In this document: positions 7,995 to 40,379 of the stretch, piece after piece | Position numbering within the stretch: position 1 is the first letter of the stretch | How the letters are laid out: every line of letters begins with the position of its first letter | Assembly (NCBI GenBank): GCA_016841445.1 | Contig: JAENZD010000004.1 | Span: 166,861 to 209,457, forward strand | Reading direction: 5' to 3' | DNA from: Anaerolineaceae bacterium | GTDB lineage: Bacteria; Chloroflexota; Anaerolineae; Anaerolineales; Anaerolineaceae | Length of the DNA: 42,597 nt | Program-made: the position numbers and the translations under genes | The notes under the pieces: model-generated | The model's input: the letters and a program-made list of their open reading frames with translations, nothing else | The model's database searches: none | Told to the model about the DNA's origin: nothing

Positions 7995-8966
7995 TTAAAT
8001 CAATCGCGCCGGTCCAGCAGGCAGCCCTTTCAGGACATCAATGATGCCGGTTATCTGGCGGAGTCTGTGCAGAACCTCTCCCATGACCTCCTGGGAGCAG
8101 ATCACGTGAACGTTTGGGCCGGCATCCAGGGTGTATGTGACGGGCAGCCCTTCATTTTGCCAGTCCTTGATGGTTTTCATGATCCCCAGCGACAGCGGGT
8201 GCCAGTAAAACAGGGGTGGGTTTGATGTCATCATCACGGCATGCATCAGATTGCTGTCCAGCTCGGTCACTTCAGCCAGGGCGTTGAAATCCCGGTTGAG
8301 GATTGCGCTCCGGCAGAGATCCATCCTGCGACCGGAATCCTTAATCCGGGCTTCTTGAAGGGGGCTGGAATCAGCCTGGCGCATCCCGGCTTCAGAACCC
8401 ACGGATTTATGTGCTTTGCTCAAAATGACGATGCAGTCCGCAAGATTCCAGTGGTCTGGGGGGGCAATTGAGAAGGCATAGGATTCGGACGATTCCGGGT
8501 CTGTCCGCCATTCGACGAACCCCCCCGGGATCGAGCGGCAAGCTGAACCTGAACCAAAGCGGGCCAAACTGGATAGTTCACGTTCAGGAAGATCAAACCC
8601 CAAGGCTGCAGTACCCGCAAGAGCGAGCGCGGCAAAGGCAGAGGCGGAGGAGGCAATGCCTGCCCCAACCGGAAAATTGTTTTCGCTGGTGACGTGGGCA
8701 AAAAGCGGCTGGCCGGTCATCAGGCGGATGCGGTCCATAAAGCGTTGGACTCGGTGTAAACCCTCGCCATTGACCGTTTGGCCATTCAAAATCAACCTGT
8801 CCGACGATAAAAGATTGTCGTATTCTACGGTGGTACGCGTCGAGAGGCAGCCGATATTCATGGATAATGAGTCGTTTGCTGGAATCCGGTGGGTTTCGTC
8901 TTTGATCCCCCAATATTTAATGAAGGCAATGTTAGGGTGTGCGAGGGCGGTCGCTTTCAGGGTCAT
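7995..8966 (-). CDS. mvaD: Mevalonate (di)phosphate decarboxylase, GHMP superfamily
   Basis: About 323 aa from the ATG at 8966. The N-terminal motif PNIAFIKYWG, the phosphate loop PVGAGIASSASAFAA near residues 100-115, GSGSACRSIPGGFVEW near 138-153 and TLDAGPNVH near 280 are the hallmarks of diphosphomevalonate decarboxylase. The last holds the catalytic Asp. In the classical pathway it turns mevalonate diphosphate into isopentenyl diphosphate with ATP. A homologue in the chloroflexote Roseiflexus instead acts on mevalonate 5-phosphate and gives isopentenyl phosphate, so the substrate here is open. The ATG has no Shine-Dalgarno site but has a promoter ending 7 nt before it, so it may be leaderless. 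A longer form from 9002 would overlap this promoter. Parts of the archaeal-type dehydratase route lie at 16.8-21.8 kb. Confidence 0.9.
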   Translation of the reverse strand: MTLKATALAHPNIAFIKYWGIKDETHRIPANDSLSMNIGCLSTRTTVEYDNLLSSDRLILNGQTVNGEGLHRVQRFMDRIRLMTGQPLFAHVTSENNFPVGAGIASSASAFAALALAGTAALGFDLPERELSSLARFGSGSACRSIPGGFVEWRTDPESSESYAFSIAPPDHWNLADCIVILSKAHKSVGSEAGMRQADSSPLQEARIKDSGRRMDLCRSAILNRDFNALAEVTELDSNLMHAVMMTSNPPLFYWHPLSLGIMKTIKDWQNEGLPVTYTLDAGPNVHVICSQEVMGEVLHRLRQITGIIDVLKGLPAGPARLI

Positions 8967-16798: not shown

Positions 16799-17374
16799 CT
16801 ATGCACCCGCTCCATCCCAGGGTTGATACAGGTCATTTTGAATCCCCATTCGTGCGAGCATCCTACCAACCGTGTTATCCACGACCTGCTCAACCGTGGC
16901 TGGACAATTGTAAAAGGTAGGATTAGGTGGATAGATGATAGCACCGGCTTGCGCTACTTTTTCCATCAAGCGCAGATGCCCCAGGTGGAGGGGTGTTTCC
17001 CGCACGGCCAGCAATAAGGGTCGACCTTCTTTCAGGCAAACATCCCCAGCACGCTGGACCAGGTTTTCTGCATAGCTGTTGGCAATACCGGAAAGGGTTT
17101 TTATTGAACATGGCACCACCAGCATCCCATCTGTGTGAAATGACCCCGAGGCGATAGGGGCAGCAAGATCATTTGGTGGATAGGTGTAGGCTGCCATTTG
17201 CCAAACACCACCAAGCTTTTGTTTGGTTTCCGTTTCCATGACCTGGGCACCCATTTGCGTGATGACAAGATGGACTTCTGCATCAAGCGATTTTAATGCC
17301 TGAAGCATGCGCAGTCCATAAACTGCGCCGCTGGCACCTGTAATTGCAAGAATGATCCGTTTCTTTTCTGGCAT
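16799..17374 (-). CDS. ubiX: Flavin prenyltransferase UbiX
   Basis: 191 aa. ITGASGAVYGLRM near residue 10 (FMN-binding Rossmann-like start), VVPCSIKTLSGIA near 88 and LLAVRETPLH near 120 are UbiX hallmarks. The enzyme joins a dimethylallyl group to FMN and makes prenyl-FMN, the cofactor of UbiD decarboxylases. A UbiD gene lies 3 kb upstream on the same strand, so the partner is nearby. The ATG has no good ribosome site; TATAAT lies exactly 6 nt before it, which points to a leaderless transcript in addition to any read-through from the AcnX-DUF126 genes. Confidence 0.93.
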   Translation of the reverse strand: MPEKKRIILAITGASGAVYGLRMLQALKSLDAEVHLVITQMGAQVMETETKQKLGGVWQMAAYTYPPNDLAAPIASGSFHTDGMLVVPCSIKTLSGIANSYAENLVQRAGDVCLKEGRPLLLAVRETPLHLGHLRLMEKVAQAGAIIYPPNPTFYNCPATVEQVVDNTVGRMLARMGIQNDLYQPWDGAGA

Positions 17375-17380
17375 GATTAA

Positions 17381-17386
17381 ATTATA
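17381..17386 (-). promoter_or_regulatory. -10 box placing the UbiX start at the ATG
   Basis: TATAAT on the minus strand ends 6 nt before the UbiX ATG at 17374. No consensus -35 box is seen at the expected distance. AAGGA occurs 13 nt before the ATG, overlapping this box, too far for a normal Shine-Dalgarno site. Confidence 0.4.
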
Positions 17387-17437
17387 TCCTTGATATCACT
17401 GGGAAAGTTTTCTTTATTTACAAGAATTATGGCTAGC

Positions 17438-17830
17438 TCAATGGATGATTTCAAGCTTTCCCTTATTGCCGTCAACGAGTAGATCCATGTTAGTCTCTAA
17501 ATCTGTCAAATCGACCTGGTCGATGCATGGAATTTCTGCAATGATGCAGCCTACGGCAATGATCGTTTCACATTCGGCATTGACCACTGCCAGGGGGGCG
17601 CAGCCATTTTTCTTGAGCCGGTAGAGGATGTATGAACCGACTGTTGATCCCTTCCCACTTGGGAATACCAGGATCTTTCCGGCTATGGATTGACCACCCA
17701 GATCATGACCGGCTTCTGTAATGATCCCTGTTTCAGGGTTAACACCACCGTAAAAAGAAATCCCCATCTGGCTGACCAGGGCTTGCCCCCTGACAACGCC
17801 GGGAAATATGGCTCTGCCGGAAAGGATCAT
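17438..17830 (-). CDS. Phosphomevalonate dehydratase small subunit (DUF126 / AcnX swivel domain)
   Basis: 130 aa, the full length of a stand-alone DUF126 protein. The family motif FPSGKGSTVGSYILY near residues 56-70 contains the Ser thought to act in dehydration. It overlaps the AcnX large-subunit gene by 4 nt (ATGA), so the two are translationally coupled. In archaea the separate large and small subunits form phosphomevalonate dehydratase, which removes water from mevalonate 5-phosphate. Related AcnX proteins in other bacteria dehydrate 3-hydroxyproline; the UbiD and UbiX neighbours favour the mevalonate role here. Confidence 0.85.
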   Translation of the reverse strand: MILSGRAIFPGVVRGQALVSQMGISFYGGVNPETGIITEAGHDLGGQSIAGKILVFPSGKGSTVGSYILYRLKKNGCAPLAVVNAECETIIAVGCIIAEIPCIDQVDLTDLETNMDLLVDGNKGKLEIIH

Positions 17831-19026
17831 TTTATGGCCTCCCGAACAACGTCGTCAAAACGCATCAAGCGGGTTTGAAAACCATTTTTAGCACTCGCGT
17901 AGTAGCAGGCTTTGGCGGAATCGGTTGCCATTGCACGGAACCGGCCTTTGATCGGTGCAACCACGCAGCAGGTATCGGTGGCAAACTTTGCACCTGCAGC
18001 TTCAATGATCGCGCTGTAGCCCATGCGGTCAGCTATCCCTTTCACCAGGCGGGAGGTTGTGATCCAGAATTCTTTTGTGACCTGCTTCCCTTCCAGCAAG
18101 ACTGCGATCCGCTGGATTTCACGCAAAGAAAGATGAGGGCAGCCGAGGCTGACAAAATCCACCTCCTCTGAATCAGCATTGTTCAGGCTTTGGATCGCTT
18201 GATCCAGGTCTGTGCGGTATATTGCGATGGATTCTGAAGGTGGCTCGTACAGTTCTGCTTCGGGCGTGATCCCGGGAAGATGGAAAAGTGCGACACCGCC
18301 GTAGGTGGCGATGCTGGCACATAGGGATTTCAGGTTTTCAAGGCTGGCGGTTTCAATCCCGTTGATCCAGGGTACCCGGTATCCTTTTTGGGACTGGATG
18401 CGGTCCCCGATGACCTTACCCAATGCGCCGAAATCAGGGTTGTTCTGGGGTTCTGACTTGACATCAATAGATAGTGTTGGACGCCTGTTTTCATTTAAGT
18501 GGTAGCCATAAGCTGGCGTCCGCCCTGTCAGCGCAGCTGCCAGCGCAGAAGGACCGCCCTCCCGGTTGGTGCGTGCCCCAATAACGGAATTTGCGTAACA
18601 AACTGCGCTGCTCTCCGCCCAGGCGATGTGCTCACCATAGACGGGTAGGTTGCCAAAAAGATAGGGTGTGCATGAGCAAGTTGTGACAACCCCCATCGCT
18701 TCGAAAGCATCCAGAACACGGCGTTGGTTGGCAGCAAAGTCCTCTGGGATTCCCAGGGATTGATAATTGTTGATATCCATCCCGGCCGGGTTGAGGGTGG
18801 TCAGAACTTGTGCTTTGCCTCCGCCATCCGCCATTTCTGTCAGCCATGCCAATCCTGCTTCCCCCAGGTTGTCGTAGCTAACACCTGAGATTTGGACGGA
18901 ATTGACCGGGATCATATGAGCCGCGCCGTAGATGCGCCCAAGGGTTTCAAGGATGCGCATGGCCTTTTGGGCAGAGGGACCAGATTCACCCGCTAGCAGG
19001 GATTGTTCTTCATACGTTAGATACAT
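17827..19026 (-). CDS. Phosphomevalonate dehydratase large subunit (AcnX / DUF521)
   Basis: 399 aa. The N-terminus MYLTYEEQ and the run IAWAESSAVCYANSVIGAR near 135-153 are typical of the archaeal-like two-subunit AcnX. Three Cys sites likely bind the iron-sulfur cluster: CTPYLFGN near 118, SLGCPHLS near 294 and ATDTCCV near 353. GARTNREGGPSALAAA near 151 is the substrate-loop motif. In archaea this enzyme with DUF126 gives trans-anhydromevalonate 5-phosphate from mevalonate 5-phosphate. The start ATG matches relatives exactly, yet no Shine-Dalgarno site precedes it; TACAAT lies 6 nt before the ATG, which suggests leaderless expression. Acting as a 3-hydroxyproline dehydratase is the main alternative, but no proline-related genes are near. 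Confidence 0.85.
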   Translation of the reverse strand: MYLTYEEQSLLAGESGPSAQKAMRILETLGRIYGAAHMIPVNSVQISGVSYDNLGEAGLAWLTEMADGGGKAQVLTTLNPAGMDINNYQSLGIPEDFAANQRRVLDAFEAMGVVTTCSCTPYLFGNLPVYGEHIAWAESSAVCYANSVIGARTNREGGPSALAAALTGRTPAYGYHLNENRRPTLSIDVKSEPQNNPDFGALGKVIGDRIQSQKGYRVPWINGIETASLENLKSLCASIATYGGVALFHLPGITPEAELYEPPSESIAIYRTDLDQAIQSLNNADSEEVDFVSLGCPHLSLREIQRIAVLLEGKQVTKEFWITTSRLVKGIADRMGYSAIIEAAGAKFATDTCCVVAPIKGRFRAMATDSAKACYYASAKNGFQTRLMRFDDVVREAIK

Positions 19027-19032
19027 GGGAGT

Positions 19033-19038
19033 ATTGTA
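19033..19038 (-). promoter_or_regulatory. -10 box placing the AcnX start at the ATG
   Basis: TACAAT on the minus strand, with ACTCCC as the only bases between it and the ATG at 19026. The transcript would start at or within a base of the start codon. A consensus -35 box is not evident. Confidence 0.4.
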
Positions 19039-19059
19039 ACATCAGTGGATGGTGAATGG

Positions 19060-19225
19060 AGAATTTTGAATGGTGAGTGGGATTGGTAAATCAGGCAGTT
19101 AGGTAACAGGCGATCAGGGGATCAGGAAAGCAGGTATCAGGCAATCCGGGGATCAGGAAAGCAGGTATCAGGCAAACAGGGGATTAGGAAATCAGGTTTC
19201 AGGCAAACAGGTATCAGATAATTGG
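19060..19225. repeat. Tandem 31-bp repeat within ATCAGG-rich sequence
   Basis: Three contiguous 31-bp units begin at 19117, 19148 and 19179, each starting GGGGAT(C/T)AGGAAA. The first two differ only at the last few bases; the third has several changes. Shorter ATCAGG and AACAGG motifs flank them on both sides. There are no spacers, so this is not CRISPR. The array lies just upstream of the AcnX gene. The rest of the gap to the SGNH gene (19226-19355) contains low-complexity AGCT-rich sequence at 19285-19360. Confidence 0.8.
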
Positions 19226-19355
19226 GAAATTTTGTGGCCGGCTGGTCAGTTGTTTATAGACTAGATCGATGTCTCTTTAATTTCCCTTTCAGCTTTCAAC
19301 TTTTAACTTTGAGCTGCCAACCACAAGCTTCCCGCTACCAGCTGCACGCTACGAG

Positions 19356-20378
19356 CTACTGTTCTCCACTTATGCCCCGCCACACCGCATCAATGGCCTG
19401 GAGGGCAGTCAGGTTGCGGACAGGCCAGGCCTGCTTCAAATTTCTGGGATCATCAAAATAATTTAGACCGTGGGTCAGGTGAAAGCCGTCCTCCAGTAAA
19501 CCGTGATTACTAAGGGGTTGGACGGCCAGCCAGAAATTCCACATGGGGATGTCGTATTCATAAGCGAGGTTGGCAATGACCTGGTTGATTTGATGGTTAC
19601 CTTCAAGGTTGCTGGCTTTGGTGGTGAGTATTGGAACGGCCCCAAATTCTATGACGGTATCCAGCACCTGACGCATGTATTTTTCGTAATTCTCAACCTG
19701 GTTATTGCTGCCCCAGGTTTCTTCCATGCTGATCAGGACGATGCTGGGCTGGTTCAAGCGAAGTTCACATGCCAGGGGCGTTTCAAGGCTGTCGCAGCGT
19801 TCTTTATCTGTCCAGCGGGTTGATAACACGGATGCAACGTTCATGCCCCCAGCGGTCGCTGTGCTTTCCCGTGAATATGATCCGCCGAAATGGTCGATGA
19901 CTTCCTGCAAGTAAGCATAATCAGCGCCCAGGTTGTACTGGTTCGGGTCGTCAAACATAGCCAGGAAGTAAGTGGTGATGTTTTGGCAATCCCCGATTTT
20001 CGAGAAACGGTCAGGAAAGTTACCCTTTTCCAAACCCTTCTGGTAGATCAACTTTGCATTGGCAGAAACGGTCGGTACAACCGGCCACTCCTGCCAGTTA
20101 GCCGGATCAAGACGGGTGTCTGGTGTGGGCGAGGGGCTGGGACTGCTGACCGGAGGAATCGTCTCAGTTTGGGTTGGAAAATCCGCTTCGGTAGGTGTGC
20201 TGGTTGTTCTTGGGCGGATGACTGTGAATGCAAATGGTGTTTGGGTGGGGGATGAGTTCGGTGAGCCTTCAGCAGTTGTGACTTGTGGTGTGGTTGATGG
20301 TAAAACCTGGCATGCAGTGGTCAAAAGAATATAAAACAAGGTCAGCAGTGAAAATTTAGCGATGCGAATTGAGGACAT
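19356..20378 (-). CDS. SGNH/GDSL-like lipoprotein
   Basis: 340 aa. A signal peptide ends in the lipobox LTTAC near residue 23. A Ser/Thr/Pro-rich linker to about residue 95 follows. The C-terminal globular part has features of an SGNH hydrolase: an internal VLISMEETWGSNN region near 212, the block PILTTKASN near 250 and DGFHLTHG near 302, whose His would be catalytic. The usual N-terminal GDS is not clear (GDCQN near 128 is the best candidate), so activity is uncertain. It would act at the outer face of the membrane. It lies between the UbiD and AcnX genes on the same strand but shows no evident link to isoprenoids. Confidence 0.6.
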   Translation of the reverse strand: MSSIRIAKFSLLTLFYILLTTACQVLPSTTPQVTTAEGSPNSSPTQTPFAFTVIRPRTTSTPTEADFPTQTETIPPVSSPSPSPTPDTRLDPANWQEWPVVPTVSANAKLIYQKGLEKGNFPDRFSKIGDCQNITTYFLAMFDDPNQYNLGADYAYLQEVIDHFGGSYSRESTATAGGMNVASVLSTRWTDKERCDSLETPLACELRLNQPSIVLISMEETWGSNNQVENYEKYMRQVLDTVIEFGAVPILTTKASNLEGNHQINQVIANLAYEYDIPMWNFWLAVQPLSNHGLLEDGFHLTHGLNYFDDPRNLKQAWPVRNLTALQAIDAVWRGISGEQ

Positions 20379-20484
20379 TTAGCAAGAAACCTCTATGGTT
20401 GTAGCAATAAATTACCTATAAAAATATATCTATTATCAATGTTGTCCAAAGAACTTCATTCACTTTCCAAAGTGTGTAATGATA

Positions 20485-21786
20485 TTAATCGATGAATGCT
20501 GAAAGGTCAACCGGGGGGAATTGTACTTTTTTGAATTTTTTCCCCTGTGTTTCCAATGGTGCAGTCAGATCAAACCCAACCTTACAGGTTTCATAGGTGC
20601 CCGGTTCTGCACTAGGGTCAAGCGATGAACCGCGCTCACGCCCCAGCATGATCATATCCCGGTCTGCCTGGAAACGGGTGGCCATGGCCCACTCGACAGA
20701 GAGCGGGTCGTAAATATCGATGTCTTCATCCACAACGAAGATGTGCTTGCAGGAATGGTGACCGCGGGCAGCAGCATAAATAGCTTTGACACCGTCCTCT
20801 TCGTGCTCTTTTCGGATCTTGACAATGGCATGCAGCCAGGAACAGCCCCCGGGATTGATGTTGATATCCAGGCATTTGGCGACCTTGCTGACCTCCCGAA
20901 AGATGGTGGGTTCCCGGGGCATCCCCATCAGGAGCTTGTGCTCCAAACCACCGGGCAGGAGGGCATGCCAGAGGGAGTCTTTCCGGTGCGTAATGCATTT
21001 CACTTCCAGGATGGGTTCGTTCCGGACGATATCCTGGGTTTCCGTAAGATCTACGAAAGGTCCCTCAGCATGGCGCTTATCACGATAGATGGTTCCTTCG
21101 ATCACAAATTCTGATTCAGCCGGGATCAACAGATCGGATGTGATCGCTTTGACAACCTGAATGGGCTTAAGGGCGTTAGCGATTTCGAGTTCGTTCACCC
21201 CGATCTCAACCGATGTTGCGCCAGCGATGAGAATTTGAGGAGCAACACCGACACAGATAGCCACATCCACAGCACCCAGGTCCTGCAGGAAGGTGTCAAA
21301 ATTGCGGGTTTTAACCACACGGACTGCCATTTCTGTTTTGGAAAACTGCATGCAGCGGTGGAAGTCCATGTTCTGCCCGTATTCAGGGTGGCTTGCGATC
21401 ATCACACCTGAGCTGATATATCGACCGCCATCACCTTCACAGTGGAACAGGATTGGCAGGTCGTCAAGATTGGGCTGATCGATGACCACTTCCTGGCACG
21501 GCGCATCAACCGTTACCTCGGGAGTCGTGTGATGCTTAATGGCATTCGTGAGGATAGGGATAATTTCACTCGTTGGGATCCCAAGGTAATCAGAAAATGA
21601 ACCTTTGCTGCACAGCAAGTTGCCTACAACGGGGAAAGCGGATTCGGTGATGTTGGAAAAGAAGACCGGTGTTGGCTCCAAGGCTTTGAGGATGCCGGCG
21701 GCCTGAAGGTGTAGTGAAACAGGCTTATCGATTTGAGTGACTGATTTTAGCTGCTGCAGATTGTTAAGATAGTCTCTAAAGGACAT
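20485..21786 (-). CDS. UbiD-family decarboxylase, probable anhydromevalonate phosphate decarboxylase
   Basis: 433 aa, the short form typical of archaeal UbiD proteins. Conserved segments are GGRYISSGVMIA near residue 120, QNMDFHRCMQFS near 138, AGATSVEIGVNELE near 189, EGPFVDLTETQD near 240 with an active-site Glu, and VEWAMATRFQADRDM near 370. It needs prenyl-FMN from UbiX, encoded 3 kb downstream. In the modified mevalonate pathway the UbiD homologue decarboxylates trans-anhydromevalonate 5-phosphate to isopentenyl phosphate. The company of AcnX, DUF126 and UbiX makes that the likeliest role. Other UbiD enzymes act on aromatic or polyprenyl-hydroxybenzoate acids, which cannot be excluded. 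A TATAAT box lies about 30 nt upstream of the ATG. Confidence 0.82.
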   Translation of the reverse strand: MSFRDYLNNLQQLKSVTQIDKPVSLHLQAAGILKALEPTPVFFSNITESAFPVVGNLLCSKGSFSDYLGIPTSEIIPILTNAIKHHTTPEVTVDAPCQEVVIDQPNLDDLPILFHCEGDGGRYISSGVMIASHPEYGQNMDFHRCMQFSKTEMAVRVVKTRNFDTFLQDLGAVDVAICVGVAPQILIAGATSVEIGVNELEIANALKPIQVVKAITSDLLIPAESEFVIEGTIYRDKRHAEGPFVDLTETQDIVRNEPILEVKCITHRKDSLWHALLPGGLEHKLLMGMPREPTIFREVSKVAKCLDININPGGCSWLHAIVKIRKEHEEDGVKAIYAAARGHHSCKHIFVVDEDIDIYDPLSVEWAMATRFQADRDMIMLGRERGSSLDPSAEPGTYETCKVGFDLTAPLETQGKKFKKVQFPPVDLSAFID

Positions 21787-29403: not shown

Positions 29404-29904
29404 TTAGTTAAACGCGTCATAATCCGCATTTAGCATCTCGGTAAGATGCCCTGTTTCTACGAGAGATCTCAGGGCATCGAGTGCTTTAAGGGCGTGTTTT
29501 TGTGTGTCCTTATCGATCTTTAACGCTGTAAATTCATCTTCGTCAAGAACCAGATATTCACCATTTGGGTAAACCAGGATATCGAGAGCTAAATCCACGT
29601 ATTCGATCCTACCTGGTTTGACTTGTGCTGGCTTGGTGACATTGCAGTACCAACCTTTTAAACTGTCATTGTCCCGGTCGTGGATCTCAAATATGTTGTA
29701 CCAGCGATCCTTGAAATACTTTTCAATAAAGCGGTCATTTTCTTTGAGATGAATCCCGTGAAAATGAAGATCTCCCCGGTTGAAAAAAGCTTCAATCAAG
29801 ATACTGGTCTCGTCCTCGGCAATGACCTTTCCGTCATATCGCCAGGTCTCTTCACCTTGCGGGTTGAGTTTGATGATCACAACTTCGCGTTCATTTGAGG
29901 TCAT
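29404..29904 (-). CDS. DUF402 protein at the end of the thiamine operon
   Basis: About 166 aa from the ATG at 29904, chosen because AGGGGGAA lies 4 nt upstream and it gives an ATGA overlap with the preceding ABC ATPase gene. DUF402 features are visible: GWYCNVTKPAQ near 85-95, YVDLALDILVYPNGEY near 102-117 and LDEDEF near 119. Characterised relatives hydrolyse nucleoside di/triphosphates or RNA-linked diphosphates with a metal ion bound by these acidic residues. Its tight coupling to the thiamine genes suggests a role on a diphosphate such as thiamine (di)phosphate, but this is inferred from position only. Confidence 0.75.
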   Translation of the reverse strand: MTSNEREVVIIKLNPQGEETWRYDGKVIAEDETSILIEAFFNRGDLHFHGIHLKENDRFIEKYFKDRWYNIFEIHDRDNDSLKGWYCNVTKPAQVKPGRIEYVDLALDILVYPNGEYLVLDEDEFTALKIDKDTQKHALKALDALRSLVETGHLTEMLNADYDAFN

Positions 29905-30959
29905 GATTCCCCCTTGCCATTTTGTAAGCAAAGAATGTCCTCAGTACTGTACCCGATTGAGATCATTTTTCCAATTTCTGCGGGGACAGATAATGAAACG
30001 ATAAAGTTAGGGATGTCATAATTGATTCGAATCGATAAACGATAGGTTTCGCCCTGGAAGACCTGATCAATGACTTTCCCTGTCAGGGTGTTCGTGTCCT
30101 CGATGCCTGCTATATGAGCCTGGTTTGGACGGAAAAGCAGAGATGTTTTTTCACCTTTTTGAGGCGCATTCCCGTCACACCTGGCATGGAACACCCCAAA
30201 CGGTGTGTTTACCGCCAAAGGAGATCGCGAGCGGACTTCTCCCTCGACCAAATTTCCCAAGCCAAAGAACTTAGCTACCCAAACATTTTTGGGGTGATGA
30301 TAGAAATCAGCCGGTTTACCGCTCTGCAGGATGACACCATCATGCAGCAGCAGCAGGCGGTCAGCGATGGAAAAGGCCTCTTCCTGATCATGAGTGACGT
30401 AAATAGCCGGGATCCTGGTCTGGTGTAAAATTCGTCGCAGTTCAAAGCTGAGCTGCTCGCGCAGGGTACGGTCGAGCGCACCCAGGGGTTCATCTAGCAT
30501 CAGCAGGCGCGGCTGTGGTGCCAAAGCCCGTGCGAGTGCAACTCGCTGCTGTTCACCACCGGATAGTTCAGTCACTTTTCGGTCTGCAAAACCGGTCATT
30601 TCGATCGTTCGTAATGCCTCTTTGACTGTTTGCTGAATTTCTTCCTTTGGCGCATTCTGCATCCGCAGTCCGAAAGCGATATTCTTGGCAACGTTACGAT
30701 GGGGGAACAGAGCATAGTCCTGGAACATCAAACCGAACTTGTGCTGGTGTGCTGGGATATCTGTGAGGTCTTCACCTTTCCAAAGAACACGACCACCTTC
30801 GGATTCCTCTAAACCAGCGATAATACGAAGCAAGGTACTCTTCCCGCTGCCGGACGGCCCCAGCAGGCAGACGGTCTCGTCTGGGTGCACCTCAAACGAT
30901 ACTTTCTTCAATAATGGTTTTCCTTCATAGGTCTTTTCGATGTTTTCAACAGTGAGCAT
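29901..30959 (-). CDS. thiQ: ABC transporter ATPase for thiamine (ThiQ-like, with C-terminal domain)
   Basis: About 352 aa from the ATG at 30959, which overlaps the permease stop by one base (TAATG). Walker A GPSGSGKST near residue 34, signature LSGGEQQRVALARAL near 133 and Walker B LLMLDEPLGALD near 153 are intact. After the ATPase core (to about 235) comes a TOBE-like C-terminal domain. E. coli ThiQ is about 230 aa and lacks this part, so the protein resembles PotA/FbpC in build. The gene's place after ThiB and ThiP under a TPP riboswitch sets the thiamine assignment. Confidence 0.85.
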   Translation of the reverse strand: MLTVENIEKTYEGKPLLKKVSFEVHPDETVCLLGPSGSGKSTLLRIIAGLEESEGGRVLWKGEDLTDIPAHQHKFGLMFQDYALFPHRNVAKNIAFGLRMQNAPKEEIQQTVKEALRTIEMTGFADRKVTELSGGEQQRVALARALAPQPRLLMLDEPLGALDRTLREQLSFELRRILHQTRIPAIYVTHDQEEAFSIADRLLLLHDGVILQSGKPADFYHHPKNVWVAKFFGLGNLVEGEVRSRSPLAVNTPFGVFHARCDGNAPQKGEKTSLLFRPNQAHIAGIEDTNTLTGKVIDQVFQGETYRLSIRINYDIPNFIVSLSVPAEIGKMISIGYSTEDILCLQNGKGES

Positions 30960-32680
30960 TAGAACCAATCCTTACCGGCTGTTTGGAGCCTCTCAATCAA
31001 AAGAATACCACTGGCGCAAACCAGCATCAATAGTGTTGACATGGCTAAAGCCTGTCCGTAATTTAATGCACCTGGTTGAGAAATGTAGCGGAAAATGGCC
31101 ACTGGCATGGTGGGGTATTCTGGCCTGGTCAGGAAGGTGCTGGCGCCGAATTCGCCTAACGAAATGGTGAGGGCAAAGATAATGCTCACTAAAATCGACG
31201 GAGCAAGCAGTGGTAGATCAACTTCATACCAGATCCGGAGCGGGGAGGCACCCAGGGCACGGGCAGCATTCCTTAAGGAATTTGGGATGCTTTGAAGTGC
31301 GGGACTCAATGTTCTGACGATGAATGGAAGTGCTATCAGGCTGTGGGCAATGGGTAAGAGGATGGGAAAATTTAGATTACTGAAGGGTGGGCGGTTGAAA
31401 ACAATGATGAAACCCAAGCCCAGTGTGATTGCTGAAGCACCTAATGGGAGCATCAGCAAGGGATCCAGGACATGGTTGATAGGGGAACTTTGTCTTAGAC
31501 CGTAAGCAACAAGAAGTCCTAAAATTAGGGTGATAAAAATGGTGATCAGGGCAAAAACGAAAGAGTTACGGATGGCTGCGATTGGCGGCACATAAAACAG
31601 CGATCCACGACGGTTGACCCCCAGCTCGCGGTAGAACTGTAGGGTCAGCCCACGCTCGATGTCACCACGCTCACCGCGAGAGGGTTCAAGTTTGACGAAA
31701 GACCGTGCAGCCAGTGAGGCCAGGGGGGAGACCAACAAACTGAACAAGACAACCACGAGGATGATAACCGCGAATCGCTCCACGCCTTTATTGGGTCTTC
31801 GCTCAACCAATGTCTGCGCTCTCGGGGTTATTGATAGGTTTTTAGAAGAAGTCAGGCTGTTATGCAGCAATGTGATAGTGAGGGTGTAGACCAATTGCAC
31901 GATGGACAGTACGGCTGCCAGCGGGAGATTGAGAAGATGCAGTGCCTGGATGTAAATTTCCACCTCGAGTGTAGCAAACTGAGGCCCTCCTAGCATCAAC
32001 ACAACGCCAAAGCTGGTGAAATTGAACAAAAAGACCAACAGAGTCCCCGCAAGAATATGCGGTTGTAATAAGGGTAAGGTTACCTCCCTGAAAGTACGCC
32101 AGGGGCTGGCCCCCAATACCTTGGCGGCATGCTCCAGGCGGATATTTTGTTTTGACCAGGCGTTGCTGACCACCCGGATAATGATCGTTGTGTTATAGAA
32201 TACATGGGCGGTCAGAATAGCGCCGAAAGTGTTCAAGAATGTGACCGGAGGCGTTGATAGGTCAAACAAAGCCATCAGACCCAGGTTTATCCAACCGCGG
32301 GGGCCGAGCAGCGTGTTAAATCCAGCCGCAACCACAACTGTTGGCAAAATGAAGGGCAAAGTGGTCAGCACTCGCAGCACTCTTTTACCCGGGAACCTGA
32401 ACCTGGCAAACAGCCATGCACTGGGCAACCCAATGATGAGGGTTAACAGGGTTGACAGAAATGCCTGATATGTGGTGAACCACAATGGGTCCCAAACCTG
32501 GCTGAAATTCAATGTCCCAAGACTGAACCCCCATTCCTTCGAGAAGAGCAAATTAAATAAAGCCAGCAGCGGCTGGTAAAAGAAAAACCCCAAGAACAGA
32601 GCGGGAACCAGCCAGAAAAGAACTGCCCGCCATGTCGGGTTTTTTGATCGCCTTCCTAAGAATTCGCGAATGGTTTTCAA
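30959..32680 (-). CDS. thiP: Thiamine ABC transporter permease ThiP
   Basis: 573 aa with two fused permease halves, each of about six membrane segments. The two EAA loops are EHAAKVLGASPWRTFREVTLP near residue 180 and ARALGASPLRIWYEVDLPLL near 475. The start is a TTG at 32680 overlapping the ThiB stop (TTGA), which implies coupled translation at a reduced rate. ThiB-like genes often pair with such a fused permease. Fe3+ uptake permeases of the FbpB type look alike; the riboswitch and receptor decide for thiamine. Confidence 0.87.
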   Translation of the reverse strand: MKTIREFLGRRSKNPTWRAVLFWLVPALFLGFFFYQPLLALFNLLFSKEWGFSLGTLNFSQVWDPLWFTTYQAFLSTLLTLIIGLPSAWLFARFRFPGKRVLRVLTTLPFILPTVVVAAGFNTLLGPRGWINLGLMALFDLSTPPVTFLNTFGAILTAHVFYNTTIIIRVVSNAWSKQNIRLEHAAKVLGASPWRTFREVTLPLLQPHILAGTLLVFLFNFTSFGVVLMLGGPQFATLEVEIYIQALHLLNLPLAAVLSIVQLVYTLTITLLHNSLTSSKNLSITPRAQTLVERRPNKGVERFAVIILVVVLFSLLVSPLASLAARSFVKLEPSRGERGDIERGLTLQFYRELGVNRRGSLFYVPPIAAIRNSFVFALITIFITLILGLLVAYGLRQSSPINHVLDPLLMLPLGASAITLGLGFIIVFNRPPFSNLNFPILLPIAHSLIALPFIVRTLSPALQSIPNSLRNAARALGASPLRIWYEVDLPLLAPSILVSIIFALTISLGEFGASTFLTRPEYPTMPVAIFRYISQPGALNYGQALAMSTLLMLVCASGILLIERLQTAGKDWF

Positions 32681-33738
32681 TCCAAAACAGTCTCCGTCCA
32701 GGCTTCAATCCAACTTTCCCTTTTCTGATCAATTTGCTCAGGCGGGAGAGATGCGGGTTCATTTGGAATCTGTACGTTCTCCTGGAATGCCTGCGGCAAC
32801 TGAGCATTTTCATTGACAGGAAACACAAACATCTGCATTGGGATGTCTTCCTGGAATGGGGCGCTGAGCATGAAGTCAATAAAAGCCTCTGCTAATGCAG
32901 TGTTTTGAGTTCCCCTGAGAATACCCACATATTCAATCTGCCGGAAGCAGGTGTTTGGACCAATAATAGACGCTGTTGGCGCTTCTTCAAGCTCTGTCTC
33001 CGCAAAAATGACTTCAGCAGCAGGGCTGGACCCATAAGATACAACCATCGGCTGAGGTCCCTGTCCTGAGGAACCGCTGAAATTCGTATAGTAAGCAGTT
33101 TCCCAATCGTTGACAACGACCAGGCCGTTTTCAGCCAGTGCCTGCCAGTAATTGAGATAGCCTTCTTCTCCAAATTGGGCAATGGTTGCCATCAAAAACG
33201 CTAAGCCTGGAGAGGATGTTGCCGGATTTTCAGTGACCAGAAGCCCCTCATATTGAGGCTCCAACAAAGCTTCCAGGGATTGCGGCACAGGTATGTTATT
33301 ATCTTCAAAATAACCCTTATCATAATTGATGCAAACATCACCATAATCGACAGGGAGAGCCATGAAAGTGGGATCCAGTTTAAACTGGTCAGGGATTTCC
33401 AATAATAGAGGCGATTCATAAGGGAGGAAAATCTCCTCTTCCAGGGCTCGAGTGAGGAAGGCATTGTCGACCCCATAAAAAACGTCTGCCAGGGGATTTT
33501 CTTTGGACAGGATCGCCTGGTTGAGGGCGGTGCCGGTATCACCACTTCGGATAAAGCGGACGGTGATATCCTGTTCTTCTTCAAACTGGGTGATGAGATC
33601 TTCACTGATGGCGAAAGAATCGTGGGTCATGACCGTCAGTGTGCGCAATTGAGGTGGCGCGCAGGCAGTTATAACAAGTCCCAGCACAGCAATGAGCATC
33701 ATAAGGAACATAAGTATAATCGGCTGTCTTTTATTCAT
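32677..33738 (-). CDS. thiB: Thiamine-binding lipoprotein ThiB
   Basis: 353 aa. A signal peptide ends in the lipobox ITAC near residue 26. TLTVMTHDSFAISEDL near 34, YGDVCINYDKGYF near 152, ENPATSSPGLAFLMAT near 187 and CFRQIEYVGILRG near 280 match the ThiB family, which binds thiamine, thiamine phosphate and thiamine diphosphate. It overlaps the upstream pyrophosphokinase gene by one base (TAATG) and the permease gene by four. The C-terminal region from about residue 320 is longer than in E. coli. Confidence 0.88.
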   Translation of the reverse strand: MNKRQPIILMFLMMLIAVLGLVITACAPPQLRTLTVMTHDSFAISEDLITQFEEEQDITVRFIRSGDTGTALNQAILSKENPLADVFYGVDNAFLTRALEEEIFLPYESPLLLEIPDQFKLDPTFMALPVDYGDVCINYDKGYFEDNNIPVPQSLEALLEPQYEGLLVTENPATSSPGLAFLMATIAQFGEEGYLNYWQALAENGLVVVNDWETAYYTNFSGSSGQGPQPMVVSYGSSPAAEVIFAETELEEAPTASIIGPNTCFRQIEYVGILRGTQNTALAEAFIDFMLSAPFQEDIPMQMFVFPVNENAQLPQAFQENVQIPNEPASLPPEQIDQKRESWIEAWTETVLD

Positions 33739-34412
33739 TATTCTTGATCTCCTTCATTAAAATCAAAGGTTTCGTGAATACACAAAAGTAACCCTTCCCT
33801 GATGGTGATATTCGCTTCTGATTGGGTCATCTTATTGCTGATACCACGTGTTTGATGGGGGGCTAAGGTTTCGTTTTCCAAGGGATAATACAGACCATGG
33901 GTGTTGATCCCGGTTACAGGTCCATTGAGCGGCAGGAGGGACACCCGATCGCCAGTTTTCCCCTTGATGGTTCTTGAGGAGCGAATCATAAAAATTTCCT
34001 GAACCCCGTCAATCAACTTCAGATCCAGGGATGCGAATTTTGGGGATGCGATCAGGAAGATGTTTCCCAGGGTCTGATCGATCCGTTTTCCAAGCGCGCC
34101 AACGACCCAGACCTCATCCGGCTGTGTTTCGAGGGAAGCCAGTAAGGCTAATTCCAGGTCTGTTTCGTTTTTTTCAACCGGGAATTTCCGAATCTCAACG
34201 CCGCGTTTTTGAAATTTCTCGATGTCTTTCGGATCTGCTGAATCAAGATCCCCAATGATCAGGTCTGGGGTCAGGTTGGACCCGGTGATGTATTTCAGCC
34301 CACCATCAACAGCGATAAGCACATCCTGACCAGAGATCTGTGATTGGATCTTCTCTGGTTGAGGAAAGTCCCCATTTGCAAATAGAACGACCTTTTTCTT
34401 GTTATTAATCAT
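33738..34412 (-). CDS. thiN: Thiamine pyrophosphokinase
   Basis: 224 aa. ANGDFP near residue 11, VDGGLKY near 34 and DLIIGDLDSADP near 52 hold the conserved ATP- and Mg-binding Asp residues; FPVEKNETDLELAL near 77 and VVGALGKRIDQTLGNI near 98 follow. It transfers diphosphate from ATP to thiamine and gives TPP directly. It is the first gene of the operon and its ATG follows the riboswitch terminator without a gap, so TPP controls its own last step and the importer together. Confidence 0.9.
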   Translation of the reverse strand: MINNKKKVVLFANGDFPQPEKIQSQISGQDVLIAVDGGLKYITGSNLTPDLIIGDLDSADPKDIEKFQKRGVEIRKFPVEKNETDLELALLASLETQPDEVWVVGALGKRIDQTLGNIFLIASPKFASLDLKLIDGVQEIFMIRSSRTIKGKTGDRVSLLPLNGPVTGINTHGLYYPLENETLAPHQTRGISNKMTQSEANITIREGLLLCIHETFDFNEGDQE

Positions 34413-35260: not shown

Positions 35261-38200
35261 ATGGCAGATTTGATGCCCACAAAATCGTACAGACGTATCC
35301 AAGTTGGGTTGGAACTTCCCCAACTCATTCAGGTCCAGATGGATTCTTTTGCTCGCCTCAAGCGAGAAGGATTCAATGGACTTTTTGCTGAAATTACACC
35401 CATTGAATCTTACAACAAAGGAATGCAGCTGTATTTCCCCACTGGCGATGCATTTTCAAAAGAATGGGGATTGAAGTTTTGGTATGAGGATCCAACCAAT
35501 ACGATCGAAGAATGTCTCGAACGTGATTTAACTTACTCAAGTCCCTTATATGTCACCGTGCTCTTAAAAGGAAAAGAAATCCCGGAACCGATCAAACAGG
35601 ACCTGTTCCTGGGTGATTTCCCTGAGATGACACCAAAGGGGACTTTCATTATTAACGGTACAGAACGCGTTGTCGTTAACCAACTGATCCGCTCACCAGG
35701 TGTCTATTTTGAGCGAGAGCTTGACCGTGCCACTGGGCGTTTCCTTTCCACGGCAAAGATGATTCCTGACAGAGGGGCCTGGATGGAATTTGAGACCCGG
35801 AAGCATGATTATCTGATCATCAAATTCAACCGAAAACGCACAACGCCTATCACCATTTTCCTGCGTGCCCTGGCGGTAGTTGATGATGGAATGGGTGAAG
35901 ACCAGAACCCCATCAAGACAGGGTCAGATCAGGAATTGATCGATCTCTTTACGGATGTGGATACAAACAACGACAGGTTGTTCATTCCTGCAACAATTAA
36001 ACAGGAACCTGAATGGGACTTGTCAGGCGAGAAGAGCATTGCAGAACAAGCCCTGATCGAGTTCTTCAAGCGACTCCGACCCGGCGACCCACCAACACTG
36101 GAGAATGCGAAAGAATTCCTGGAAGAACAGTTATTTGATATGCGGCGCTATGACCTTGAACGTGTAGGGCGCTACAAACTCAATCAAAAACTTGACCAGG
36201 AAATCCCGATCTCGCACCGCACGATCACAAAATCGGATATCATCCGGATTGTTCGACGAATGATACAGATCAATAATGCTGTTGAGCCTGCTGATGATAT
36301 TGATCATCTCGGTAACCGGCGTGTGAAAACGGTTGGTGAACTGATCCAAAATAAACTGCGTGTCGGCTTACGCCGAATGGAACGCGTGATCCGTGAGCGG
36401 ATGTCCATCCGTGACCAGGATCAGGTTTCACCCACAAGCTTAGTCAATATTCGCCCGGTTATTGCTTCTCTACGAGAATTTTTTGGCTCGAGCCAACTTT
36501 CTCAGTTCATGGAAGAAACCAACCCCCTGGCAGAACTTCGCCATAAACGAACCCTGTCCGCTTTAGGACCAGGTGGTTTGCGACGAGAACGGGCCGGTTT
36601 TGATGTACGTGACGTGCACCATACCCATTACGGGCGCATCTGCCCAATCGAGACCCCGGAAGGTCCAAACATTGGTTTGATCGGCCGTATGGCAACTTAT
36701 GCCACGGTCAACGAATATGGTTTTATTGAGACGCCTTATCGTCAGGTTGTCAAATCGATGAAACCCACCGATGATCTGGTGGACCGGCAGTTACGAGAAG
36801 ATATCAAAGATCCAAAGACGGATAAGATCATCGCTAGCAGTGGTGAACGAATTACCAAAGATTTAGCGAAGAAACTGAAAAAACTTGACCGTGATGTGAT
36901 CCTGGTGAAACCATTTGTGACGGACCAATACGAGTACCTATCAGCAGATGCCGAAGATAAATTTGTGATCGCCCAGGCGAACGCTCCGCTGAACGAATAC
37001 AATGAGTTTACGCGACGTGTTTCATGCCGCTACCACTCGGGGTTCATGCTCGGGACAGAAGAACAGATCAATTACATGGATGTTGCCCCCCAGCAAATTG
37101 TTGGTGTGAGCGCCGCCCTGATCCCCTTCCTTGAACATGATGATGCAAACCGAGCCTTGATGGGCTCAAACATGATGGCGCAGGCGGTACCCCTGGTGCG
37201 GCCTGAGATCCCGATCGTTTCAACCGGCATGGAAGCTTATTCTGCTGTTGATTCCGGGCAGCTTGTCGTTGCTGAAGAAGATGGTGAGGTAGTCTCAGTC
37301 ACGGGGCGCTCGATCCAAATTCGAGAGAAGAACGGCAATATCCATACCTACAACTTACAAAAATACCGGCGGTCAAACCAATCGACCTGTATTGACCAGC
37401 GTCCTGCAGTGATCAAAGGCCAGCAGGTTCAAAAAGGCCAAATCATTGGTGACTCTTCCTCATCTGTGGACGGCCAGCTCGCACTGGGACAGAATGTGTT
37501 GATTGCATTTGTCTCATGGGAGGGTGGCAACTTTGAGGATGCTATCCTGATTTCTGAAAAGCTGGTTCAGGAAGATCGCTATACTTCCGTTCACATCGAA
37601 AAACATGAAGTGGAAGCGCGCGATACCAAACTGGGCCCCGAAGAGATCACACGGGATATTCCAAATGTCGGTGAAGAAGCGATTCGTAACCTGGATGAGT
37701 TTGGCGTGATCCGCATTGGTGCAGAGGTTGGGCCTGGAGATATCCTGGTTGGCAAGATCACCCCTAAAGGCGAAAAAGAACTGACACCTGAAGAGCGGTT
37801 GCTCAGGGCAATCTTTGGTGAGAAATCACGTGATGTAAAAGACACATCCTTGCGTATGCCGCATGGTGAAAAAGGGATTGTTGTGGATGTGAAGGTATTC
37901 ACACGGGAAGAAAACAATGATCTCAAAGCCGGTGTTGACACAATGGTGCGTGTTTCTGTGGCTCAGCGTCGAAAGGTCACGGAAGGTGATAAGATGGCAG
38001 GACGCCATGGGAACAAAGGTGTTATCTCGATGGTTGTACCTATTGAGGACATGCCTTTCCTTGATAACGGTCGATCAATTGAGATCATTCTCAACCCGTT
38101 GAGCGTCCCAGGCCGTATGAACCTCGGGCAGCTTTTGGAAGTCCACCTTGGGTGGGCTGCAGAACGGCTTGATTTTAGAGCGATTACGCCTGTGTTTGAT

Positions 38201-39160
38201 GGTGCAACGGAATATGAGATTGAAGCCGAATTAGCTCGTGCCTGGATGATCGATGAAGCCTGGAATGCGGCCGGTGAGCAAGCCTGGGAATGGCTGGGTG
38301 AAGAATATGACCCCGAAGCGATCCGGGACGATGATGAAGTCCGCATGCTGTATTTAGAGGAATGGCTTGGTGAAAAAGGTTACGAAATATATGACCTGCA
38401 GGATCCGAGTTTTGCACGACAAGCTACGATGAAAGAATGGCTGCGCGATAAAGGTTATGACCCGGATGGGATCACAGCTTTTGTTAATGATGAAATCGGT
38501 GTTTCAGAACGGTATGATCAGGATACGAGCGCGATTGAAGCCTGCTTACAGTTATGGATGAAATCTTTAGGTGAAAGTTTCAAGAAGAGCCTGGCTGGTG
38601 ATGAGCTTAATGCGAAAGCCAGAGAGGTTATGAAAAAGCTGGATAAGCCCATGCCAACACTAGGGAAACAGAAATTGCGTGACGGTAAGACTGGTGATTA
38701 TTACGATCACCCGGTCACGGTTGGGTTGATGAATATATTGAAACTTCACCACCTGGTGGAAGACAAAGTTCATGCCCGTTCAACAGGCCCTTACAGTCTT
38801 GTGACCCAGCAGCCGTTGGGCGGTAAGGCACAGTTCGGCGGCCAACGCTTTGGTGAGATGGAAGTTTGGGCGCTGGAAGCTTATGGTGCAGCTTATACCC
38901 TGCAGGAAATGCTGACGGTTAAATCTGATGATGTAGTTGGGCGTGTCAGCACTTATGAGGCGATCGTTAAAGGTGAGCCGATCGAGAATCCTGGTATTCC
39001 TGCTGCTTTCAAGGTTTTGGTGAAAGAAATGCAAAGCCTTGGCCTGGCGATCGAGGCTGTTTTAGACAGCGGTGATGTGATCACCTTTGGCAAGGATGAG
39101 GATAAGGCGAGAGTACCTAATACACCGACGGGTTTGATCAGTATTGGACGGGATATATAA
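35261..39160 (+). CDS. rpoB: RNA polymerase beta subunit
   Basis: 1299 aa, full length. The rifampicin-pocket region is intact near residues 405-450: [19 protein letters not shown], then [11 protein letters not shown], then [14 protein letters not shown]. The nucleotide-contact segments [12 protein letters not shown] near 911 and [20 protein letters not shown] near 1187 follow. AGGAGTG lies before the ATG. Between about residues 977 and 1131 there is an acidic insertion longer than in Thermus, with three degenerate EWL(G/R)..GY(D/E) repeats. The gene stands apart from rplJL and rpoC: upstream is csbD, downstream rpsL. No mutation typical of rifampicin resistance is evident. Confidence 0.97.
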
Positions 39161-39174
39161 GGCTATCTTTGTTC

Positions 39175-39203
39175 TTGACGCACCCCATATCACATGGTAG
39201 AAT
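39175..39203 (+). promoter_or_regulatory. Promoter of the str operon
   Basis: TTGACG (39175-39180), 17 nt, TAGAAT (39198-39203), beginning 15 bp after the rpoB stop. It gives rpsL-rpsG-fusA-tuf a start of their own. Confidence 0.65.
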
Positions 39204-39272
39204 CATCCCTCGTTACCCCCATACCAGCCCAATAAGATCGGCTGGATTTTGGAGGAAAAATTGTAAAAAAGC

Positions 39273-39302
39273 GAGGCCATCACGGAAGATGAGGATGGCC
39301 TC
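39273..39302 (+). promoter_or_regulatory. Leader hairpin before rpsL
   Basis: GAGGCCATC / GATGGCCTC is a perfect 9-bp stem with a 12-nt loop in the leader between the promoter and rpsL. There is no U-tract after it, so it is likelier a site for ribosomal-protein feedback or RNA processing than a terminator. TTGGAGGAAAAATTG upstream resembles the rpsL ribosome site TTGGAGGC and is followed at once by TAA. Confidence 0.45.
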
Positions 39303-39342
39303 CATTATTGGAAAATGTAATCATTAGTTTTGGAGGCAAACA

Positions 39343-39759
39343 GTGCCAACGATTAACCAACTGATACGAAAAGGCCGGAAAGCACCGAGCAAGAAAAGCA
39401 AAGCTCCTGCGCTGCAGTATACGTATAATTCACAGAAACAAAAACGTATTCGACAGCCAAAAGGTGCACCGCAGAAACGCGGTGTGTGCACGGTCGTGCG
39501 TACAATGACCCCCAAGAAACCGAATTCTGCTTTGCGGAAAATAGCCCGTGTTCGTCTGACGAACCACATGGAAGTTACCGCATATATCCCTGGCGAAGGT
39601 CACCAGCTTCAGGAGCACTCAGTGGTGCTCGTGCGCGGTGGTCGTGTCAAGGATTTGCCTGGTGTCCGATATCATATTGTTCGAGGCACACTGGATTCGA
39701 CTGGTGTTGAGGACCGCTCACGCGGACGCTCAAAATACGGCGCCAAAAAACCTAAGTAG
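39343..39759 (+). CDS. rpsL: Ribosomal protein S12
   Basis: 138 aa from a GTG at 39343, with TTGGAGGC 7 nt upstream. The core [13 protein letters not shown] near residue 47 and [12 protein letters not shown] near 93 hold the two Lys residues whose change causes streptomycin resistance; both are wild type. The N-terminal insertion typical of Gram-positive-like S12 is present, which explains the length over the 124 aa of E. coli. Confidence 0.98.
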
Positions 39760-39781
39760 CCGAAATCCAGTCGTTTAAGTC

Positions 39782-39840
39782 TAGGGCGAAGCATTTTAAT
39801 CGGTCTCAATGGGGATTGCTGAAATGCTTTGCCCTATTTT
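39782..39840 (+). terminator. Attenuator hairpin between rpsL and rpsG
   Basis: TAGGGCGAAGCATTT pairs with AAATGCTTTGCCCTA (15 positions, one mismatch or G-U) around a 25-nt loop, followed by TTTTAATTTTTG. It lies 22 bp past rpsL and 27 bp before rpsG. It should cut part of the transcripts and uncouple S12 from the rest of the operon. Confidence 0.65.
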
Positions 39841-39867
39841 AATTTTTGATTTTTGTAAGGAGTAAGG

Positions 39868-40338
39868 ATGGCGCGTAGATATACACCAGAAAAACGAGAA
39901 ATCTCCCCTGATATTCGCTTTAACCAAATCGATATCCAGGAGATGATCAATCGAATCATGATCAAAGGCAAGAAAAGTACAGCCACACGGCTGATGTACG
40001 ATGCCATGGATTTGATTGAAGAGCGCACAGGAAAGGATCCAGTTGAGACCTTTGATACTGCGCTTAAGAACGTCTCCCCGATGATGGAAGTTAAACCACG
40101 TCGTGTGGGTGGCGCGACATATCAGGTGCCGATGGAAGTTGATCCTTCTCGCCGCAAGAACCTTGCGATGCGATGGATCATTACCGCTTCTCGAGCTCGA
40201 CCAGGTAAATCATTTGCTGAGAAGCTGGCAAACGAATTGATGGATGCAGCAACACATTCCGGTGCTGCATACCGCCGCCGTGAAGAAACGCACCGTATGG
40301 CAGAGGCCAACCGGGCATTCTCACATTTTCGTTTATAA
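39868..40338 (+). CDS. rpsG: Ribosomal protein S7
   Basis: 156 aa, the usual length. Its start MARRYTPEKREISPDIRFN and the RNA-binding segments VKPRRVGGATYQVPMEV near 75 and AMRWIITASRARPGKSFAEK near 100 are clear. AAGGAGTAAGG lies before the ATG. It is the primary binder of the 16S 3' domain and in many bacteria the repressor of its own operon. Confidence 0.98.
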   Translation: MARRYTPEKREISPDIRFNQIDIQEMINRIMIKGKKSTATRLMYDAMDLIEERTGKDPVETFDTALKNVSPMMEVKPRRVGGATYQVPMEVDPSRRKNLAMRWIITASRARPGKSFAEKLANELMDAATHSGAAYRRREETHRMAEANRAFSHFRL

Positions 40339-40379
40339 AATCTCGCATCGATTTATTGATTTGGATTAGGTGACCTTTC

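Follow-up and report, generated by a model that had tools for sequence, protein, structure and literature searches.

Archaeal-type mevalonate cassette genes and a phosphomevalonate decarboxylase homologue in one Anaerolineaceae genome: predicted alternative modules for a single metabolic step

Some Chloroflexota encode an archaeal-type mevalonate pathway, according to passages of PMC13001223, which cites Kanno et al. 2024 and Dellas et al. 2013; the former (Appl Environ Microbiol 90:e0110624), to judge by its title in that reference list, concerns the archaeal mevalonate pathway in Ca. Promineifilum breve. The gene set is that of Aeropyrum pernix and relatives (Hayakawa et al. 2018, cited), and the archaeal pathway involves no DMD homologues (passages of PMC9254496). 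A haloarchaea-type route consisting of phosphomevalonate decarboxylase (PMD) and isopentenyl phosphate kinase (IPK) is also assigned to Chloroflexota (Dellas et al. 2013; passages of PMC3857490), for which PMD activity has been demonstrated in Roseiflexus (same passages). The stretch of DNA analysed here (the window, 42,597 nucleotides; positions 166861-209457 on contig C5) belongs to the genome of an Anaerolineaceae bacterium (G000; 3.35 Mb, 8 contigs, 98.85% complete) and carries a cassette of predicted genes for phosphomevalonate dehydratase (PMDh; AcnX large subunit and DUF126 small subunit), anhydromevalonate phosphate decarboxylase (AMPD; UbiD family) and UbiX flavin prenyltransferase, along with a PMD homologue. 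To our knowledge, the archaeal route in bacteria is known from one uncultured Chloroflexota; PMDh and AMPD activities have reportedly been demonstrated for Ca. Promineifilum breve. Genes of this route are now found in 19 of 61 genomes of relatives (a first set that includes G000), among them the cultured Ornatilinea apprima P3M-1.

The cassette and PMD are very probably alternative modules for the conversion of mevalonate 5-phosphate (MVA5P) to isopentenyl phosphate, of which relatives keep both or either. AcnX and DUF126 would dehydrate MVA5P to trans-anhydromevalonate 5-phosphate on a [4Fe-4S] cluster, UbiD would decarboxylate this intermediate to isopentenyl phosphate with prenyl-FMN made by UbiX, and mevalonate kinase (MVK) and IPK, encoded elsewhere in the genome, would give the preceding and the following step; PMD would carry MVA5P to isopentenyl phosphate with ATP. 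From gene identity, residues, clades, gene order, co-occurrence and one secondary deletion, all of them read directly in the sequences, we infer the enzyme activities and the working of both routes. An earlier sequence-only reading of the window had proposed that the bacterium makes isopentenyl phosphate by the archaeal route, and had left open whether that route was already described in Chloroflexota. It is (Ca. Promineifilum breve, by the title cited in PMC13001223), in the same phylum and, by that title, as the same pathway. The residues, clades and pathway genes support the proposal as a prediction, but it is incomplete: the cassette genes were correctly named, whereas the PMD homologue at 7995-8966, which would perform the same net conversion with ATP, was overlooked.

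All four genes lie on the minus strand, as had been reported, and match their profiles strongly: UbiD (20485-21786, 433 aa; TIGR00148, 331.5 bits, over the cut-off; Pfam PF01977/PF20696/PF20695, together the N, middle and C domains of UbiD), AcnX (17827-19026, 399 aa; PF04412, 489 bits), DUF126 or AcnX swivel domain (17438-17830, 130 aa; PF01989, 119 bits; NF003046, 171.8 bits, over the cut-off) and UbiX (16799-17374, 191 aa; PF02441 Flavoprotein; TIGR00421 and NF004685 over their cut-offs). AcnX and DUF126 are separate subunits whose reading frames do overlap by 4 nt. The run is not unbroken, since a lipoprotein-like open reading frame (ORF; 19356-20378, minus strand, 340 aa) intervenes between UbiD and AcnX; the order on the strand is UbiD, this ORF, AcnX, DUF126, UbiX and then a metallopeptidase. 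The 340-aa ORF has no NCBIfam or Pfam match, occupies the same position in G011 (locus L083) and G010, is missing at that position in G015, and is retained in G009 despite the loss of the cassette there; it is probably outside the pathway.

By its residues, cluster cysteines and clade, the AcnX/DUF126 pair of the window is predicted to be a PMDh. The best solved relative of AcnX is the Thermococcus kodakarensis protein (7cnr_A, 345 bits, versus 200 bits for the Agrobacterium hydroxyproline dehydratase), and DUF126 matches its partner 7cnr_B (TK1248, 147.6 bits). The three cysteine sites noticed earlier in AcnX, C119, C296 and C353, all align with the cluster cysteines C110, C283 and C342 of Thermococcus PMDh (sites A, 1 and B; [4Fe-4S] ligand positions from passages of PMC10040528), and the serine motif expected in DUF126 is present as Ser62-Thr63-Val64. 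At the MVA5P-binding positions of the large subunit (passages of PMC8184944) the window is identical to Thermococcus in ten of ten residues (G48, V49, S50, N53, N79, E129, S130, S131, K361 and Y365), so that the PMDh residues of the archaeal system are conserved. The hydroxyproline (C3LHyp) dehydratase belongs to the same superfamily and differs in substrate residues and clade: at Thermococcus positions 47, 53 and 131 the window has Ser47, Asn53 and Ser131, whereas the hydroxyproline-like AcnX proteins of G038, G045, G047 and G054, four genomes without a UbiD orthologue, have Asp47, nothing at 53 and Asn131.

PF04412 was matched in 25 of the 61 genomes, that of the window included, and AcnX of the PMDh type, defined by the ten residues, occurs in 19, one of them (G012) truncated at the end of a contig and so missing the last two. 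A separate sample of 80 AcnX loci (31 from Chloroflexota and 49 archaeal, with no P. breve record among them) has G48-V49-S50-N53-N79 and the three cysteines throughout, a conservation that partly reflects selection, the loci having been picked with peptide patterns including GVSY or TTLNPAG. The named database records whose AcnX genes come closest bear the titles Anaerolineaceae, Anaerolineales, Anaerolineae or Chloroflexi. Across the phylum, typing of the best 30 loci from 301 genomes (8 AcnX matches over the cut-off, for which no locus was retrieved, stayed untyped) yielded seven of the PMDh type (G000, G011, G037, G122, G185, G231 and, with Thr instead of Asn53, G068). A third type of AcnX in Chloroflexota (L024, L025, L026 and L027), with VTS...N at Thermococcus positions 48-53 and Asp at 79, is unlike both PMDh and hydroxyproline dehydratase; it is carried by G016 and G017 and as second copies by G019 and G026, the last being Ornatilinea, which has it alongside a PMDh.

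In a quick maximum-likelihood (ML) tree of 62 AcnX proteins, the PMDh-type proteins of Chloroflexota fall into a single group that takes in L137 (SH-aLRT 99) and adjoins proteins of Asgard archaea, DPANN and Bathyarchaeota, the hydroxyproline type being well separated; a FastTree version, made without the short L025 and 11 duplicate rows, places L137 just outside. Both trees put a second Chloroflexota PMDh group (G068, G185 and G231) elsewhere and join the third-type AcnX to Thermococcus by a very long branch, a pairing taken as an artefact. A more careful tree of 39 rows supports the Chloroflexota group at 95/89 and splits Thermococcus with G185 and G231 from that group and the archaea (100/99); the archaea as a single group are weak there (61/21). 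The tree, a check that the sequence-only reading had suggested, and the residues thus set the window protein apart from the hydroxyproline type, and hydroxyproline dehydratase was rejected as an identity for it. For UbiD (53 rows) the Chloroflexota group has a support of 99 and is sister to an Asgard and Bathyarchaeota group (99 for the two together). Cassette UbiD proteins, that of the window and those of Asgard and DPANN cassettes among them, stand apart (SH-aLRT 99) from eight others, namely the second UbiD of this genome, to which the window UbiD is 32% identical, and seven of relatives. On the corresponding check by tree, an aromatic-acid decarboxylase was rejected as an identity for UbiD, and clade and gene order predict that the window UbiD is an AMPD. 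The two trees agree in suggesting a shared history close to Asgard archaea; a transfer into bacteria may be presumed from the breadth of the pathway in archaea (literature in passages of PMC11052028).

Gene order also ties the family to the mevalonate pathway. Upstream of AcnX, on its strand and no more than 3 kb away, a UbiD gene is found at 27 of the 31 Chloroflexota loci and at 48 of the 49 archaeal loci (45-70% identity for the archaeal UbiD matches); on the downstream side DUF126 is present at 30 and at all 49 of them, respectively. An MVK-like gene is present at 45 of the 49 archaeal loci, with IPK as well at 33, and with HMG-CoA reductase (HMGR) in addition at 29. In G185, from the other Chloroflexota PMDh group, UbiD, AcnX, DUF126 and an IPK over its cut-off are contiguous. 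The conserved order, the archaeal neighbours and this IPK therefore link the gene family of the window to the mevalonate pathway by position, besides residues. A UbiD orthologue (at least 60% identity) is found in 19 of 19 genomes with PMDh-type AcnX versus 1 of 42 others.

The rest of the pathway was found when the genome was searched for the genes that the sequence-only reading had named: MVK and IPK are adjacent on contig C3, and contig C6 carries HMGR together with a thiolase-family gene and an HMG-CoA synthase of archaeal type (TIGR00748, over the cut-off). IspG, the sole gene of the MEP pathway that was searched, is missing from the window's genome and the rest of the 61 genomes and from 24 further cassette genomes, in contrast to its presence in 9 of 14 control genomes; the MEP pathway as the main route was rejected on the absence of this one gene. 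The 24 further genomes form a second set (G068, G122, G185, G231 and the genomes of named Chloroflexota loci absent from the first set), which omits L107 (AcnX identical to that of L106; not searched for PMD) and leaves out G369, a duplicate of G026 (Ornatilinea apprima P3M-1), so that this genome is counted once. A second UbiD and a UbiX lie on contig C3 of the window's genome (L274, 6766-9262) beside molybdenum hydroxylase-type genes with MoCoBD domains.

The PMD homologue of the window (7995-8966, minus strand; TIGR01240, 259.7 bits, over the cut-off) is listed as an ORF from TTG 9002, with a likely ATG start at 8966. Its best solved relatives are 6n0z (410 bits) and 6n0x (407 bits), the next scoring 201; 6n0x is the PMD of Anaerolinea thermophila (AthPMD; passages of PMC9254496), and 6n0z, which is unlike it at the Asn and His positions considered below, is presumably an engineered variant. 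PMD exceeds the model cut-off in 33 of 43 distinct PMDh-type Chloroflexota genomes (16 of 19 in the first set, 17 of 24 in the second), so that most cassette genomes keep the ATP-using alternative, and the cultured Ornatilinea apprima P3M-1 has both together. In the remaining ten genomes, PMD is a contig-end fragment (G001), is split into two pieces (G356) or gives no match (G036, G056, G068, G185, G231, G354, G359 and G360). The two pieces in G356 (L093, 9582-10515) are just downstream of the cassette and reflect decay or an assembly error. Because it keeps a PMD homologue, the window's genome does not represent the archaeal pathway in pure form, though its cassette has the marks of that pathway; to the haloarchaea-type route, whose PMD and IPK it shares, it adds PMDh/AMPD. 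The difference from archaea is not absolute, because PMD-like matches lie near the cassette in 13 of the 49 archaeal loci, some of them only 26-28% identical. PMD/DMD-like genes are found near the UbiD-AcnX-DUF126 cassettes of some Asgard archaea at L115 (7484-8479) and L154 (12734-13726). No description of PMD together with PMDh/AMPD in one bacterium was found in the literature covered, which takes in little of the subscription literature, and the combination is not claimed to be unreported.

Among 42 high-quality genomes (completeness at least 90%, contamination at most 5%), counting PMD matches of any strength, 10 have both modules, 30 PMD only, 2 the cassette only and none neither; the 40 with a PMD match include some weak, split or partial ones. 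The cassette, HMGR, MVK and IPK all occur in each of the two PMD-less genomes, G036 and G056. G185 (99% complete) and G231 (96%), which were chosen for having PMDh, likewise possess PMDh and IPK without PMD or IspG. The converse state is found in the window's own genus, where G006, G009 and G013 (95-97% complete) are without AcnX and without the cassette UbiD. G013 has HEAT, RseP, PMD, M48 and photolyase genes ordered as in G015, with other genes at the site of UbiX-DUF126-AcnX-UbiD in G015. When the DNA of G009 was compared with that of G010, the genome closest to it in the PMD tree, the collinear blocks were PMD-RseP-HEAT, the lipoprotein ORF and two photolyase-side stretches, and between the last two features a 51-bp UbiD block (L269, 4707-4757; 82% identity, E 3e-8). 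As protein this block is a match of 18-21 codons (E 0.001 to 0.05 for nine of ten orthologues, 0.97 for one), and it is best read as the remnant of a deleted cassette. If so, PMD alone would suffice in G009, and this loss together with the cassette-only genomes supports the prediction that both modules perform the same net step.

Several observations weigh against a pathway assignment for the cassette or for PMD. MVK, IPK and HMGR are found in none of the retrieved flanks of the 31 Chloroflexota loci of the window type, and of the 24 further cassette genomes no more than 20 have an IPK above the cut-off. At position 47 of AcnX the window has Ser, versus Ala47 in Thermococcus and Asp in the hydroxyproline enzyme, and in the small subunit it has Tyr27 versus Leu27 (position from passages of PMC8184944). 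A solved AMPD for comparison with the window UbiD was looked for, and none was found. PMD falls below the cut-off of the PMD model NF040704 (184.5 versus 475), and its substrate is less sure because Ile and Met replace the Asn and His of AthPMD; the Ile stands at the position of the DMD Lys, which is thus absent, and the Arg is present. The cassette-only link is weak by itself, both PMD-less genomes falling among the 12 cassette genomes of the 42 with a chance of about 0.08, and the variation of the cassette within the genus makes it dispensable there.

A chance neighbourhood of a hydroxyproline-type or other AcnX/DUF126 and an unrelated aromatic-acid UbiD/UbiX pair would explain the cassette with no mevalonate function, and both families are indeed diverse, with hydroxyproline-like and third-type AcnX in the same phylum and a second UbiD/UbiX pair elsewhere in the genome; this is highly improbable, given the substrate residues and three-cysteine pattern of the PMDh type, the clustering of AcnX and UbiD with genes of archaeal mevalonate loci, an order conserved across domains and the co-occurrence of UbiD with PMDh-type AcnX. 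That the cassette is instead a largely silent import, with PMD carrying the flux, has its patchiness in its favour (16 presence changes on the PMD tree) as well as the secondary loss in G009, but is rather improbable: median dN/dS within the genus is low for AcnX (0.121, from 35 of 36 pairs) and UbiD (0.111, 44 of 55), and neither PMD nor IspG occurs in any of G036, G056, G185 and G231, the cassette-bearing genomes described above.

The opposite possibility, a working PMDh/AMPD route with PMD freed for another job or decaying where the cassette is present, is unlikely, though less so. It draws on the AthPMD His position. In the window's genus (g1, 14 PMD rows) this residue is Met in 14 of 14 rows, and the Asn position is Ile, Leu, Met or Phe; outside g1 the His is replaced by Gln in G026, by Asn in a clade of three and by Asn or Ser in a clade of four, altogether in 8 of 24 cassette genomes versus 0 of 27 without a cassette. 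These counts omit G369, and the PMDs of G001, G038, G044, G045, G046, G050, G058 and G356 and the second piece in G012 are absent from the rows; some rows have over-extended ends, outside which the residues were read. The counts are suggestive, yet they reduce to four His changes on the PMD tree, where an independent-pairs test is unable to reach 0.05, and decay through loss of the His was rejected as an explanation, the His pattern being retained as a lead. The split PMD of G356 would also fit decay, but PMD is split without a cassette as well (G044), and it is over the cut-off about equally with the cassette (16 of 19) and without it (33 of 42). G006, G009 and G013 lack a cassette and would therefore depend on the Met-variant PMD that they carry. 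No row has lost the catalytic Asp, Arg or Ser, and median dN/dS is again low (0.144, from 63 of 91 pairs, 28 saturated or failed pairs having been dropped); PMD, AcnX and UbiD all look constrained within the genus. Alternative modules for one step, both apparently under constraint, remain the preferred prediction.

A bolder extension, put forward tentatively and with somewhat less than even confidence, is that Anaerolineales run both routes in one cell and switch with oxygen or energy supply, that PMD may prime the archaeal route, and that the modules replace each other in evolution. PMD would use ATP and need no oxygen-sensitive cofactor, whereas the Fe-S/prenyl-FMN pair, of Asgard-like ancestry, would save ATP. 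UbiX requires dimethylallyl phosphate, and PMD may act as a primer because this substrate derives from the pathway's own product. The Anaerolineales offer a testable case of two predicted non-homologous solutions to one metabolic step, coexisting and lost in turn, of which the imported set has its nearest relatives in Asgard archaea.

Elsewhere in the window, ABC transporter genes for an ATPase, a permease and a binding protein lie beside a thiamin pyrophosphokinase gene (29904-34412, minus strand) and are likely to serve thiamine uptake. On the plus strand (35261-42455), the genes that come after rpoB are a 138-aa ORF, rpsG and fusA, and rpoC would not fit between them.

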